From: Candidatus Brocadia sp.
Lineage (GTDB): Bacteria; Planctomycetota; Brocadiia; Brocadiales; Brocadiaceae
NCBI GenBank assembly: GCA_011525665.1
Contig: WYAU01000043.1
Span: 1 to 64,000, forward strand
Reading direction: 5' to 3'
DNA: 64,000 nt
The notes under the pieces were generated by a model. It saw only the letters and a program-made list of their open reading frames with translations. It ran no database searches and was not told the origin of the DNA. The translations under genes and the position numbers were made by a program. Below are positions 25,385 to 57,899 of the stretch, piece by piece (position 1 is the stretch's first letter; each line of letters starts with the position of its first letter).

Positions 25385-25505
25385 CCGTGGGTTCAAGTTT
25401 TCAACTGAGCCCATGCTTTATACTGCTTACTGTGCTATCGATTGTATACAGCGCTATTCTCCATATAAACTCATGGGTTCAGGTTATAAACCTGAACCCG
25501 CCGAA
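25385..25505 (+). repeat. Direct repeat of about 120 bp, copy 1
   Basis: This segment matches 26819-26940 over its whole length with few differences. Each copy opens with GGGTTCAAG and a short hairpin, has a central TTTATACTGCTTACTGTGC, and closes with the hairpin GGGTTCAGGTTATAAACCTGAACCC. The outer ends are inverted repeats of each other, giving a MITE-like structure. The pair brackets a toxin-antitoxin module. Confidence 0.9.
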
Positions 25506-26818: not shown

Positions 26819-26940
26819 CCGCGGGTTCAAGTTTACAACTTGAACCCATGCTTTATACTGCTTACTGTGCTATCGAATGTATACAGCGCCATTCTCCATA
26901 TAAACTCACGGGTTCAGGTTATAAACCTGAACCCGCCGAA
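26819..26940 (+). repeat. Direct repeat of about 120 bp, copy 2
   Basis: This copy has better-preserved hairpins than copy 1: GGGTTCAAGTTTACAACTTG closing on itself at the left end and GGGTTCAGGTTATAAACC closing at the right end. Confidence 0.9.
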
Positions 26941-35461: not shown

Positions 35462-36366
35462 TCAGCCCTTCATTGTTCGGTAAATATTTGTTTTTTTTAA
35501 TTTTTCAATTTCTTTCTGGAATTTTTTCTCTCTTTTCATACGGATTTCTACTCGCTTCAGCGTTTCACTTATTGTTGACCCCTTTACTCCAAAATATCTC
35601 CAATGTCTCTGTTGTTTGTATTACTCATTGTTTTTGACACATAGATTACTGTTTGTCTTTCCATTTTTCCTGAGCCTTTCTTTAATAACTCTTCTTCCCT
35701 TTTACCGTAATAATTACAACAAACATTTGTTACTTTCTCTACAGGAATTATTTTCATGAGTTTTTTTAGCTGAGGAATATTTTCGTCAGGCTTCATACAC
35801 TGTAACCATGTTTTTTATCTTTGCCACGAATATTTTACTGCCAAGAAGAACTCCTGCTTCCATATCTTCCAGAGGATTATTTCTTTCTTCCGCACCTTCC
35901 ATGACAAACTCTTTGTATGCCTTTATTGCAGTTGCCTTTGTCTTTGAAAAGTATGAAAGGGTTTCTGCTGTATCTACTATTGATTCTTTTCCCTCATAAG
36001 TGCCGATATATTCCCTATAACTTGTCCATTTATAATCATCCGTCTTTTTCACAATTCCGGCTCGCACAGGATTTAAGTGGATATATCTGGACAGAACAAT
36101 CAGGTAGGTTTCTTTGTCCACGATTATACCCTTAAATCTCCCCTGGAAAAGATGACCAAATCTTTTCTGTCTTTTGTTTATATAAACTGTATAACTTGTG
36201 TTGATATTCTGCATGATCCGGGAGATATTTGCCTTTGGTGTTTTCCGAAAAAGCTGATAGTGATTTTCCACAAGGCATAAGCATGGAGCAGATATCCATA
36301 CCGTTCCTTTGTTCTTCTTAAGATATCCAAAAACTTTTCTCTGTCTTCTGACCCCTTGCCCCTTGA
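35462..36366 (-). pseudogene. REP-associated (Y1) transposase, three frameshifts
   Basis: Four successive frames on the minus strand together give a nearly full transposase: EDREKFLDILRRTKERYGY, ENHYQLFRKTP, GHLFQGRFKGIIVDKETYL, LSRYIHLNPVRAG, then the C-terminal helix-turn-helix with VKGSTISETLKR. Frameshifts lie near 36265, 35795 and 35590. The HUH motif reads NHYQL, so the second His is already Gln. The N-terminus with the RGNER motif is replaced by the end of a relE gene. It ends with AATGAAGGGCTGACCC. Confidence 0.8.
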
Positions 36367-36728: not shown

Positions 36729-36768
36729 TGATGTGTACCCCATTGTCTAGACAATGGGGTACACATCA
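36729..36768. repeat. Perfect 40-bp palindrome
   Basis: TGATGTGTACCCCATTGTCT is followed without a loop by its exact reverse complement. Such perfect symmetry is what two abutted terminal inverted repeats of an insertion sequence would give after loss of the interior, and it interrupts the antitoxin gene. Confidence 0.9.
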
Positions 36769-36910
36769 TGCATATTGAACATTTAAAAACCAAAATGTGC
36801 TACATTATTACCTGTAAAAAGTTCTTGCAAGTTTTTCACCTCCCCTTCATCCCTTCCTTGCAAAGGAGGGAAAAGAGGGGTGGTTGTCTTTGATTGGGCT
36901 ATGAAGTGCT
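36769..36910. repeat. CCTTGCAAAGG palindromic repeat in a short gap
   Basis: At 36838-36886 the sequence CCCTTCCTTGCAAAGGAGGG is followed by a GAGGGGTGGTTG tail. The same unit occurs inside the helicase-nuclease gene at 57220-57258. Confidence 0.7.
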
Positions 36911-38582: not shown

Positions 38583-39093
38583 ATGACACGACCATTACGA
38601 GTACAGTACGAAGGTGCAGTGTACCATATGACCTGTCGCGGTAACGAGAGGAAGACGATCTTTAAGGATGACCAGGATAAAAACGTGTTTCTTGAGTTAT
38701 TGAGCGATGGCGTGAAGACATATAACATTATCCTGTACTGCTATATCCTCATGGACAATCATTTCCGCCTGCTCCTGGAAACTCCCTTGGGCAACCTGGG
38801 CGTGTTTATGAGGTGGTTTAATATTACCTATACCTCGCATTACAACAGGAGACACAAAAGGGCCGGTCATTTGTATCAGGGAAGATACAAGAGTATCCTT
38901 ATGGAAAAGGAGGGCTATTTGCATGTTTTATCCCGGTATATCCACCTGAACCCTGTCAGGACGAGGCAAAAAGAAAAGGTGTCTTTGGCGGAAAAGAAGA
39001 AATATTTAAGAAATTATCCGTGGAGCAGTCTTTTGGCTTATATCGATGATACGAAAAAAAAGCGCTTTTATTGATTATGCTCAGGTCCTTTAG
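38583..39093 (+). pseudogene. REP-associated (Y1) transposase, HUH-mutant and frameshifted
   Basis: The frame starts MTRPLRVQYEGAVYHMTCRG and NERKTIF, the canonical N-terminus, and continues to GHLYQGRYKSILMEKEGYLH and LSRYIHLNPVR. In the HUH motif MDNHFRLLLET the second His is Arg. After the AAAAAAAA run at 39054-39061 the frame is lost; one shift gives SAFIDYAQVL and a stop at 39093. The C-terminal helix-turn-helix part is missing, so the copy is doubly inactive. Confidence 0.85.
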
Positions 39094-40720: not shown

Positions 40721-40775
40721 AAAGGCTTCGTTCACAGTACACCTTTCCATGTACTGTGAACGAAGCCTTTTTTAT
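40721..40775 (+). terminator. Perfect 21-bp-stem terminator or attenuator
   Basis: AAAGGCTTCGTTCACAGTAC plus A pairs perfectly with the segment 40750-40770 across an eight-base loop, and TTTTTT follows. It lies between a promoter and the zinc-ribbon gene, so it would end a short RNA of about 65 nt or attenuate the gene. It is too close to the promoter to be the end of any rightward gene, and sppA runs the other way. Confidence 0.75.
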
Positions 40776-53837: not shown

Positions 53838-56800
53838 ATGCCAAAACCCATTGATAATGATATAAGAGAACTTGCCGTATCTGAACTGGATAAAAACATT
53901 GTTGTGACGGCGGGCGCGGGAACCGGTAAGACCACACTTCTGGTGAACCGAATGCTGCACCTGCTGCTGGGCCACAAAAGATTCCAAAAAGATGAAAGCC
54001 CCATCCTCAAAATTGTGGCCATGACCTTTACGGAAAAGGCCGCCGGTGAAATGAAGGTCAGACTAATGGGGGAATTAGAAAAGATTGTAGCCGTCATTAA
54101 TGGAAATACCCCCGAAGAAGAGAAAAAAAAGGGAGAAAAATTCCTTATGCATATCCGGGATAGTTACCAGACGACTTACCGTGAGATCGAACGCCGTGCA
54201 AGAAAATCCCTTGAGGATATGGATAAGGCCATTATCGGAACTATTCACAGCTTCGCCGCCTATATCCTGCGCTTGTATCCTGTTGAGGCCGGAGTAGTGC
54301 CTGGCTTTACAGTGGACGACGGTGATGCCTTTGATGAACTTTTTGGTAAAGAATGGACAAAGTGGCTGGATGCAGAGCTTGCCCTTGCTTCACCGAACGC
54401 AGATACCTGGAAGAGTGTGCTCAGGCGGTTAGACCTCGAGTCGCTCAAGAACCTGGCCAGGCGGTTATCGGGGTTTACTATCCCTTTAGATTCTCTTACG
54501 GTTGCGGTGGGTAATAAATCTGTAATCGCTCACCCCCACGTTCCCCCCTCCGGGGAGAGTGAATCTGGTAATCGAACACCACATGTACACCTCTCCCCTG
54601 GCGGGAGAGGGCTGGGAGGAGGGGGTGCGGCATTGTTACATCCACCGGATATCCAATCCCTGATAGATCCATTATCTGATAAAATCGTTGAGGTTGTCAC
54701 CTGTTGTGAAAAATCCCGGAACAACCTCCTTTCACAATTGCAGGAATTGGCGAATATTCTTGATTCTATAAAAAATCAGGGTCTTGGTTATCTGAACAAT
54801 TTAGAGTATGATCTCAACAAAAACCCTTCAACTGCAAAGACCGGTTGGGCCGATGAAGCATTTAAAACCGCGCAGGAATTGGTAAAAGAGTGCCATACCC
54901 TCTTAAAGAAGTTAAAGACCGTTGATGATGTCTTTATTGCGACTACAATAAATCTCATTCTTCCTTTTGCAAAGTCATTTCGGCAGACATATTTATCCCA
55001 CGGATATGTCTCTTTTGACGGACTCCTTACCCTTACCAGGGATTTACTGCAAAAGAAAGAATACCGGTATATCCGTGAGAAACTCAAGAAAGAGTTTAGA
55101 GCGACACTCGTCGATGAGTTCCAGGATACAGACCCCCTCCAGTATGAGATCGTCCTCTTCCTCTCTGAGTCATTGGAATATTACAGCACAGATGCCAGAA
55201 AGGTAACCCTTGAGACGGGAAAACTCTTTATTGTGGGTGATCCCAAACAGTCCATTTATGCCTTTCGCAGGGCAGATATAGAGGCTTATGAACAAGTGGT
55301 ACAGCAGGTGTACGGACAGGATGAGACTTTAAAGTTACAGGAAAATTTCAGGAGTCATTCCGGTATCATTGAGGTTGTAAACCAGCTATTTGACGGAAGG
55401 ATCATGGTTGAACAACCAGGTTTGCAGGCACGGTACGTTCCTATTCACGCAAACAGGCCAAAGAGCCGCCCAACCCAAAAAGTTGAGATTGTCCTGGTTT
55501 CTGATAAAGAAGGAGAAGGGCTAAAGGCGGATGAGGCAAGGGAGGCTGAGGCAGAGTGGATTGCACGATGGATAATAAAGCACGTGAATGACGAGGTCAT
55601 CGAAGATGAATTTGCGGAAAACGGACATCGTCAGCTTAAATACAGGGACGTTGTATTGCTTCTGCGGGCATTTACCCAGGTGAGACCTTATGTTGAGGCG
55701 CTCAAAAGGTACGGTATCCCTTATATTGTAGAAGGCGAAAAATACTTCTACACAACCCAGGAAATCCTCGATTTCATGAATCTCCTGCGTGCCATAGAGA
55801 ATCCCCATGATACGATTGCCCTGGTGGGTGTACTGCGTTCTCCTGTGGTAGGCTTAACCGACCGTGAGATATATGAACTTAAAATAAACCACATATTAGA
55901 TTACCGCAATAACATTTCGGGTGAAGTCCCCAGGTCATGTGAACTCACACCAAAGGATAAAGATACCCCACCAAAATCCCTCCCCTTCGAAGGGGAGGGG
56001 GGGAGAGTAAAAAAACTATCCACGGATTTAAAAAAAATTGTGGAACCATTCTATGGTTTTTTAAGAAAAACCCATGCCCGCTCAGGCGTAGTCCCTGTTT
56101 CGCAACTTATTGCAGAGATTATTGACAATACCCATATTGCAGAGATTACGGCATGTGCATGGCATGGTGAACAAAAACTGGCCAACCTCTGGAAACTCCA
56201 CCAGATGGCTTGCGACATGGAACAGTCCGAGTGTATTTCACTGAAAAACTTTATAGACCGCATCAAGGCACGCATAAAGGAGGCCAGGGAAGAGGGAGAA
56301 AGTCCTCTTTCGGATGAGACGCTGGATGTCGTGAAAATCCTGACCATCCATAAATCCAAGGGCCTTGAATTTCCCGTCGTCATCCTGGGCAATCTGCACG
56401 GGGAAGTGAGGAACGACAAAGAGGTGTTAGACTCAGCGGTATTTGATTGGTCTGCGTCGATGACGGGCATTGTGATTGGTAAGGGGGATCAAAAGGTAAG
56501 AAATCTTCAAAGTATCATCATTGAAAAGAAATTGAACGCCCGTTCGTGGGAGGAGGAGAAACGTGTCCTGTATGTTGCCATGACCAGGGCCAGGGAACGA
56601 TTGATCCTTACGGGTTCACCGAAGGACGACGATAAATCTTACATGGGACTGATTACAAGATCAGTGAGAGATGTGACAGGCATCGGGCTTGGCGATGAAA
56701 CATTCACGAACCCCGGTTACACAAAAGAAAATGAAAATTTATCATCCTCCCCCAACCCATCCCATTCCTTCGGCTTTGTTCTGGACAATCAGGGGAGGGG

Positions 56801-57899
56801 AAATAGCGGAGAATCTCCGTCAAGGGAGGAGAATATAACATACGAGGGAAAAAACCCAATTGGAGAAAAATCCCCTTTCCCCTTGCGGGAAAGGGTCAGG
56901 GGCACTTCCCAAGGAAAATTCCCTTTAGGAAATACAGAGGTCTTTGTAGAACATTTTAAATTTGATGGTACACATCGTCCCCCAAAGCCTCCGAAAGAGA
57001 AGACCTGGGATGTCGACTGGACAGCCTTTGCCGAACTGTGGAAAGGAAGAGATATTGCAATGGCTGAGGCAGCGAAGAACCCCCTCTTTGTCTCTCCAAC
57101 GACAATGGTACCCGAAGAAACAATGAAAAAAGGCATATCCATAGCGCCGGGCAGGGCCGAAAGGACGCCTCGTTGTCATCCGGATGAATTTGAACAGCAA
57201 CGTGCGGAAAACTACTCTTTTTCCCCTCCTTGCAAAGGAGGGGAAAAAGGGGTGGTTATAAAATCCAAAGAAATTAAACCTGATACGGAACAATCACAGC
57301 CAGAACATGCCACATTTATCGGTTCCATCTGCCACCGCGTACTGGAGGAATGGGATTTTCACGGGACTTCCCCGGAACTTCAAAGGTCAGTCGAGTCAGC
57401 CGTAAAATGGGCCGTTGCCTTTGAAAGTGCTAAGGGAGAATCATCTGCCCAATTTCACAGAGAAGACCTTGCAGATCAAGGAGAAAGTGTTTCCCCCCCT
57501 TACGAAGAACACAAGGAAATACTCTTTGATGTGAAACAACTTCATGATGTGGAATATATAAAAGCGGAGGTAGTAAAAATACTCTCAGAATTCATCGGTT
57601 CAGAGGCATATAAAGAACTACAGGCCGCTCAGATACTCGGACGCGAGGTACCCATCCTGCTCAACTGGGATGGGCAGATCATGCGGGGTATCATTGATAT
57701 CCTCTATAAAACAGACGACCACATTATTATTGCCGATTATAAGGCCGATCATGTTACAATAACCGATTTACCAATGAAAGCAGAAAAATACCAGCGTCAA
57801 AAAGAGGTCTATGTTGAGGCCGTCAAGCGCTGTCTGAAAACAGACAACCCCGAATTTAAACTCATTTTTTTAAGGGTAGGTAAGGCAGTATCACCGTGA
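53838..57899 (+). CDS. AddA/UvrD-family helicase-nuclease with in-frame repeat insertions
   Basis: The 1353-residue protein has the superfamily 1A helicase motifs: Walker A TAGAGTGKTTLL (24-35), Walker B LVDEFQDTDPLQYEIVL, GDPKQSIYAFRRADIEAYEQ, HKSKGLEFPVVIL and VLYVAMTRARERLIL. A C-terminal PD-(D/E)XK nuclease follows (GSICHRVLEEW, then GIIDILY, then IIIADYKAD). The order matches AddA of AddAB double-strand break repair. At least four segments (about residues 231-268, 713-725, 970-1030 and 1126-1142) are translated palindromic repeats of the intergenic type. AddB is not seen next to it; the upstream neighbours are the Bat genes. The start lacks a good ribosome-binding site. Confidence 0.88.
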   Translation: MPKPIDNDIRELAVSELDKNIVVTAGAGTGKTTLLVNRMLHLLLGHKRFQKDESPILKIVAMTFTEKAAGEMKVRLMGELEKIVAVINGNTPEEEKKKGEKFLMHIRDSYQTTYREIERRARKSLEDMDKAIIGTIHSFAAYILRLYPVEAGVVPGFTVDDGDAFDELFGKEWTKWLDAELALASPNADTWKSVLRRLDLESLKNLARRLSGFTIPLDSLTVAVGNKSVIAHPHVPPSGESESGNRTPHVHLSPGGRGLGGGGAALLHPPDIQSLIDPLSDKIVEVVTCCEKSRNNLLSQLQELANILDSIKNQGLGYLNNLEYDLNKNPSTAKTGWADEAFKTAQELVKECHTLLKKLKTVDDVFIATTINLILPFAKSFRQTYLSHGYVSFDGLLTLTRDLLQKKEYRYIREKLKKEFRATLVDEFQDTDPLQYEIVLFLSESLEYYSTDARKVTLETGKLFIVGDPKQSIYAFRRADIEAYEQVVQQVYGQDETLKLQENFRSHSGIIEVVNQLFDGRIMVEQPGLQARYVPIHANRPKSRPTQKVEIVLVSDKEGEGLKADEAREAEAEWIARWIIKHVNDEVIEDEFAENGHRQLKYRDVVLLLRAFTQVRPYVEALKRYGIPYIVEGEKYFYTTQEILDFMNLLRAIENPHDTIALVGVLRSPVVGLTDREIYELKINHILDYRNNISGEVPRSCELTPKDKDTPPKSLPFEGEGGRVKKLSTDLKKIVEPFYGFLRKTHARSGVVPVSQLIAEIIDNTHIAEITACAWHGEQKLANLWKLHQMACDMEQSECISLKNFIDRIKARIKEAREEGESPLSDETLDVVKILTIHKSKGLEFPVVILGNLHGEVRNDKEVLDSAVFDWSASMTGIVIGKGDQKVRNLQSIIIEKKLNARSWEEEKRVLYVAMTRARERLILTGSPKDDDKSYMGLITRSVRDVTGIGLGDETFTNPGYTKENENLSSSPNPSHSFGFVLDNQGRGNSGESPSREENITYEGKNPIGEKSPFPLRERVRGTSQGKFPLGNTEVFVEHFKFDGTHRPPKPPKEKTWDVDWTAFAELWKGRDIAMAEAAKNPLFVSPTTMVPEETMKKGISIAPGRAERTPRCHPDEFEQQRAENYSFSPPCKGGEKGVVIKSKEIKPDTEQSQPEHATFIGSICHRVLEEWDFHGTSPELQRSVESAVKWAVAFESAKGESSAQFHREDLADQGESVSPPYEEHKEILFDVKQLHDVEYIKAEVVKILSEFIGSEAYKELQAAQILGREVPILLNWDGQIMRGIIDILYKTDDHIIIADYKADHVTITDLPMKAEKYQRQKEVYVEAVKRCLKTDNPEFKLIFLRVGKAVSP
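54528..54641. repeat. Intergenic-type palindrome inside the helicase gene (1)
   Basis: CTCTCCCCTGGCGGGAGAGG and flanking CACCCCCACG/GAGGGGGTG arms form a hairpin unit. It is translated in frame as a Gly/Pro-rich loop (HVPPSGESESGNR, HLSPGGRGLGGGG) unlike any helicase sequence. Confidence 0.75.
55978..55999. repeat. Palindrome inside the helicase gene (2)
   Basis: CCTCCCCTTCGAAGGGGAGG lies within a perfect 22-base palindrome, translated in frame as SLPFEGEGGR. It extends the segment between helicase motifs without breaking the frame. Confidence 0.8.
56744..56901. repeat. Palindromic inserts inside the helicase gene (3)
   Basis: Two hairpin-prone units, CCTCCCCCAAC with its AGGGGAGGGG partner and CCCCTTTCCCCTTGCGGGAA with AGGG, lie about 70 bases apart. 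Their translation is Ser/Pro/Gly-rich (SSSPNPSHSF, EKSPFPLRERVRG). Confidence 0.65.
57220..57258. repeat. Palindromic insert inside the helicase gene (4)
   Basis: TTTCCCCTCCTTGCAAAGGA continues with GGGGAAAAAGGGGTGGTTA. Nearly the same unit occurs in a non-coding gap at 36838-36886, showing that a mobile intergenic repeat is read in frame here (SFSPPCKGGEKGVV). Confidence 0.85.

Follow-up and report, generated by a model that had tools for sequence, protein, structure and literature searches.

In-frame palindromic repeats in an AddA-type helicase-nuclease gene and in unrelated genes of Candidatus Brocadia and its relatives

Results

The window, by which we mean the whole 64,000-nt stretch of DNA analysed here, derives from a Candidatus Brocadia genome of 3.63 Mb in 111 contigs and contains a gene for an AddA/RecB-type helicase-nuclease (Table 1). 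The encoded protein matches Pfam PF00580, PF13361 and PF12705, the AddA chain 3u44_A is its best match in the PDB (E = 1e-58), and its matches among named relatives are from Candidatus Brocadia sp. BIN37, Ca. Brocadia carolinensis and Ca. Brocadia sapporoensis. AlphaFold modelling in two parts (aa 1-760 and aa 761-1353) with 10-row alignments gave poor models (pLDDT 40 and 34), too weak to place the inserts in surface loops. A first-pass annotation, made from the letters of the window, had described hairpin repeats read in frame within this gene. Indeed, in-frame hairpins with perfect arms of 15 bp and 11 bp are present at 57217-57249 and 55978-55999, respectively, as are a weaker one at 56873-56895 (score 9) and more degenerate ones at about 54589-54611, 56740-56806 and 57488-57510. 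These hairpin repeats lie in five in-frame insert regions, which together amount to about 230 codons. The annotation had also placed the repeats in linkers between motifs. This is correct for inserts 3 and 4 only, which fall in the plain linker that joins the helicase domain to the nuclease domain; the other three (1, 2 and 5) fall inside Pfam domain spans, where homologues have a short loop.

Table 1 Features of the window that bear on the in-frame repeats
Feature	Position	Strand	Protein position or evidence
AddA/RecB-type helicase-nuclease gene, host of the inserts	53838..57899	+	1353 aa; Pfam UvrD-helicase, UvrD_C, PDDEXK_1
Insert 1, composite family-B hairpin (...HPHVPPSG...HLSPGGRGLGGGG...)	54522..54647	+	aa 229-270
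Insert 2, hairpin CCCTCCCCTTCGAAGGGGAGGG at 55978-55999	55929..56018	+	about aa 698-727
Insert 3, two hairpins (SPNPSH...QGRGN; SPFPLRERVRG)	56706..56915	+	about aa 957-1026
Insert 4, family-A hairpin 57212-57256, coding tail VIKSKEIKPDTEQ	57165..57284	+	about aa 1110-1149
Insert 5, decayed family-A copy (SVSPPYEE)	57426..57536	+	about aa 1197-1233
Y1/HUH (RAYT-like) transposase remnant by the extragenic copy, HUH motif HYQ	35786..36271	-	PF01797; frames
Extragenic family-A copy	36838..36884 (36838-36886 as compared with the AddA copy)	+	nhmmer, E 2e-12
Second Y1/HUH (RAYT-like) transposase gene, HUH motif HFR	38583..39074	+	PF01797, 45 bits; translation

Alignment of AddA across 34 genomes revealed clean insertions at all five regions, each of which is missing from several close relatives in which both flanks are well aligned. 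Insert 1 is missing from genomes G007, G008, G010, G030, G032 and G014, and the interval that measures 156 nt in the window is 30 nt in the first five of these; in G029 and G031 it takes a shorter form with a single hairpin. G010, G016 and G023 do not have insert 2, and its site holds PPFLKGDQGGLKEN-type repeats in G022 and G026 and PFGKGELRGISKGE-type repeats in G008 and G014. Insert 3 is missing from G014, G007, G008 and G010 and is represented by another repeat family in G015 and G023. Insert 4 is orthologous in G002, G005, G009, G007 and G003 and missing from G006, G008 and G031, while insert 5 is missing from G024 and G030 and has a better kept hairpin in G009, G007 and G029. Amino-acid constraint in the inserts is weak, with dN/dS values of 0.5-0.9 compared to 0.11-0.15 for the rest of the protein. 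In G004 the AddA gene (L031, G004:C1:171800-177000) is split into two frames, broken at or just past the insert-2 repeat, which could be a real loss or an assembly homopolymer error.

The repeat at 57220 belongs to a family, here family A, that is dispersed through the genome. Its core (CCCCTCCTTNNNAAGGAGGGG) matches 73 genome sites with no more than 3 mismatches, compared to 1 for the reversed control, and the genomes of the bacterial family contain from 1 to 78 copies each. Family A is thus a dispersed palindromic family with many copies, one of the marks of repeats like the Rickettsia palindromic elements (RPEs). The AddA copy had been called nearly identical to the extragenic copy in the window; the two share 40 of 49 positions (82%). 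Many extragenic copies (L121, L135, L141, L150 and others) have common long flanks on both sides (TAAAAACTTCTTTTTT...AAGTTTTTACC and GGTGGTCAATTTGGTTGCGGCTATGCTGCGC), and because these flanks are shared they suggest a longer, three-hairpin element of about 130 bp.

In 619 kb of genome stretches, 464 kb of which were picked regardless of repeats, we counted 61 family-A copies and scored a copy as in-gene when it lay in a reading frame of at least 180 aa. Sixteen copies did so, in 12 genes. By Pfam these encode AddA, a U32 peptidase (three sites), a GT9 glycosyltransferase, a HAO-like multihaem cytochrome, PriA, a spermine-synthase-domain protein, two TPR proteins, a YfhO protein, a radical-SAM protein, SelA and a PDZ protein. 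The proposed search for in-frame copies in other genes was therefore productive, as 11 genes besides AddA carry them in the 619 kb examined. Within the 464 kb picked regardless of repeats, in-frame copies occur in AddA, U32 (three sites) and GT9, and the other matches are mostly intergenic. Clean inserts are present in PriA (~65 aa; 213-267 nt between conserved codons in G002, G003 and G005 versus 57 nt in G004, G006, G007, G008 and G010) and in SelA (~26 aa; 135-159 nt versus 78 nt at the empty site). At the U32 sites the repeat is present, absent or from a different family among relatives, and in both AddA and U32 unrelated repeat families occupy the same linker in different lineages. No empty site was obtained for the GT9 insert, the homologues compared being too distant. 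A further property of RPE-like repeats is thus observed here: they insert in frame in conserved genes that are unrelated to one another, and relatives have the empty sites. The HAO-like gene (L120:638-2446, G000:C84) has two in-frame family-A repeats close to its N-terminus.

The 16 in-gene copies all share a single reading frame, which encodes SPPxxGG, whichever the orientation of the hairpin. Among 90 extragenic copies the core is open in this frame in 65; the counts for the two remaining frames are 47 and 48, so that stop codons are not the sole cause of the single frame; were usage proportional to openness, the probability of one frame in 12 of 12 genes would be about 2e-5 (0.41 to the 12th power). 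Because the other frames encode LLAKEG or SLRRR peptides, selection against these peptides is the likely cause.

Six in-gene copies of unrelated genes also have in common, gap-free, the 44 nt past the hairpin, with 18-31 of 44 positions identical per pair compared to 12-15 after shuffling. A profile of this tail, built from coding copies, was searched against 33 genomes. Among the matches listed, 38 extend to the tail's end, and 33 of these lie in frames of at least 500 aa, about 14 long-frame matches being at places outside the building set; the remaining five are in short frames, one of them plainly intergenic (G030, locus L263). Of the other matches listed, ~112 by eye count, two are in frames of at least 300 aa. 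Some further long-frame tail matches may be orthologues of genes already counted. A 592-aa protein in G016 has a tail-bearing copy similar to that of the HAO-like gene, and this match is probably an orthologue of that gene.

Within orthologous copies the hairpin arms differ less than their surroundings. In U32, inner arms, tail and upstream DNA differ at 2%, 30% and 46% of positions, in PriA at 7%, 67% and 23%, and in AddA insert 4 at 20%, 47% and 29%, respectively; since the comparison was ungapped, some flank distances are inflated by indels. In U32, G000, G009 and G030 have the loop CGC, whereas G029 and G031 have GCG, on arms that otherwise match, a change that fits better with inversion or replacement of the hairpin than with point mutation. 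Synonymous sites of the AddA inserts have diverged less than those of the core in six of six comparisons (0.24 versus 0.40 with G009), which runs against the prediction of plain vertical neutral drift.

Y1 transposase genes are present in 33 of 33 genomes of the family, and RAYTs belong to the Y1/HUH transposase class. The Y1 gene beside the extragenic copy was considered as the mobilising transposase but finds no support in that role: it is truncated, without the N-terminus and without the second His of the HUH motif. Among seven Y1 loci examined, one has a family-A copy nearby, the Y1 gene of which looks broken, and no intact Y1 gene was found with family-A repeats at its flanks; the Y1 proteins of two loci in this genome (L067, L069) look intact. 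We therefore treat RAYT mobilisation of family A as a reasonable guess, somewhat short of an even chance. No target-site duplication is evident at the PriA site, a weak test because the insertions are old. The window holds other palindromes: a perfect 40-bp one at 36729-36768 (TGATGTGTACCCCATTGTCTAGACAATGGGGTACACATCA), in the gap that separates the Y1 remnant from the extragenic repeat; a hairpin at 40721-40770, the arms of which match perfectly over 21 bp around a loop of 8 nt; and three copies of another repeat (GGGTTCA(G/A)GTT...AAC(C/T)TGAACCC) at 25475-25499, 26823-26847 and 26909-26935.

Discussion

The genomes contain a palindromic repeat family that is cleanly present or absent at its sites, is read in a single frame, has many host genes and is under weak amino-acid constraint. 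Very probably, these are mobile hairpin repeats that inserted in frame in tolerant linkers and then drifted near-neutrally. As we picture it, non-autonomous palindromic repeats (REP/MITE-like, 50-130 bp) would insert in genes and between genes; an insertion would survive in a tolerant linker, in the sole frame whose product is flexible and rich in Pro and Gly (SPPxxGG); the host protein would stay functional, and the insert would then drift at a near-neutral amino-acid rate. Two of these steps we infer: that the inserts are neutral for the host protein, and that a Y1/HUH (RAYT-type) transposase moves the repeats in trans by acting on their hairpins in single-stranded form. Judging from sequence, the in-frame repeats of AddA and of no fewer than 11 further genes probably become part of the proteins, as linkers that these tolerate.

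The alternative that the inserts are native, fast-evolving linker segments, in which palindromic DNA arose by chance or codon bias, could draw on orthologues that keep the residues despite a decayed palindrome (G005, G007). However, relatives that have no palindrome do not have the residues either, which argues for insertions, and the same DNA is present in unrelated genes and between genes. Moreover, the protein sequence does not by itself account for the palindromes, as 60 synonymous-codon shuffles of AddA lost them (a mean of 0.03 palindromes scoring at least 11, maximum 1, versus 2 observed, and none scoring 15). We consider native segments ruled out. Also improbable is that the in-gene hairpins are retained for a function in mRNA structure, protein binding or DNA-repair regulation. 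The inner arms do vary less than the downstream insert DNA (p-distance 0.02 versus 0.30 in U32, 0.07 versus 0.67 in PriA and 0.20 versus 0.47 in AddA), and two of the 12 host genes encode recombination/replication helicases (AddA and PriA). Yet the hairpins have decayed in several orthologues (G005, G007, G003) and are absent from many species, the host genes are unrelated in function, and amino-acid constraint is weak. The frozen arms, the change of the loop and the low synonymous divergence of the AddA inserts could be due to any one of gene conversion between copies, correction of palindromes by template switching, renewed insertion, or selection that acts on the hairpin.

Within the mobile-repeat explanation, there are two readings of the coding tail. 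It is possible, if on balance unlikely, that the tail-bearing copies are a repeat subfamily specialised for genes, present almost exclusively within long genes, in which the 44-nt tail extends the frame (GVVIKSxEIPxDxEQLP) and the hairpin is refreshed at its site through recombination or template switching that would invert the loop and leave the arms unchanged, so that the element spreads as a protein linker. Somewhat more plausible, while still short of probable, is that the coding copies with tails date from an older generation and have survived, their hairpins being kept perfect by recombination with younger copies; extragenic copies would have been freely deleted, and coding copies could be lost by exact in-frame deletion only. 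Survival from an older generation is consistent with tails that have diverged to 18-31 of 44 identical positions beside cores that stay near consensus, with U32 orthologue loops of CGC or GCG on nearly unchanged arms, with the low synonymous divergence in the inserts and with the five tail-bearing matches outside long frames, one clearly intergenic (G030). Against it, no direct conversion tract was seen, and some of the in-frame copies, those in GT9, TPR and YfhO, match the extragenic type.

In-frame palindromic insertions had been described chiefly from Rickettsia and Wolbachia, with REP-bearing repair genes as scattered further cases. The present insertions lie in core enzymes across an entire family of free-living anammox bacteria, and our literature search on palindromic repeats in anammox bacteria or Brocadia brought up no earlier description of such insertions. 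Dozens of genomes offer empty and filled sites, with which one can test how protein segments are added by selfish DNA, whether insertion favours repair genes, and what keeps hairpins perfect within coding sequence. In annotation, these segments should be taken as inserts rather than as functional domains; this extends to those in a HAO-like cytochrome that may matter for anammox. The specialised subfamily, if true, would be a mobile element spreading as a protein linker.

The phenomenon itself is known, from RPEs and from intragenic REPs including that of Xanthomonas recB. ERIC, Correia and other bacterial MITEs, for which coding fusions are known (PMC2229807), resemble the Brocadia repeats as non-autonomous hairpins, ~100-150 bp long, whose open frames are fused with host genes; as a difference, terminal inverted repeats and the accompanying target-site duplication were not identified in the Brocadia repeats. 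Di Nocera et al. 2013 described REPs inside genes of several species, many of them replication/repair genes, with Xanthomonas recB holding REPs that differ but occupy roughly one position, and suggested a function for REP-tagged repair genes (PMC3733652). These GTAG and CGTC super-families are likewise short palindromes in genes, and Xanthomonas recB is the closest parallel to AddA; the Brocadia AddA differs in having multiple sites and multiple families in one gene, across a whole bacterial family. By sequence, family A is not a GTAG or CGTC REP: by eye, neither tag was found at the ends of 61 listed copies, which read ACC(A/T)CCCC...GGGG(A/T)GGT.

The likeness to RPEs drawn in the first-pass annotation is upheld by the empty sites and the many hosts, as a likeness of behaviour. 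RPEs are protein-coding palindromes (Ogata et al. 2000; described in PMC10969869 and PMC2229807), and a guanylate kinase carrying one is reported to stay active (PMC2229807). Like the Brocadia repeats they are palindromic, lie both between genes and in frame inside unrelated conserved genes, are tolerated, form several families and, at about 105-150 bp, encode a recurrent peptide. The Brocadia core hairpin is shorter (about 50 bp, with optional flanks), the resemblance drawn here is one of behaviour, and the host of RPEs is obligate intracellular, whereas Brocadia is a free-living anammox bacterium of a different phylum. By this analogy, the Brocadia repeats may be seen as a free-living counterpart of the protein-coding palindromes of Rickettsia.
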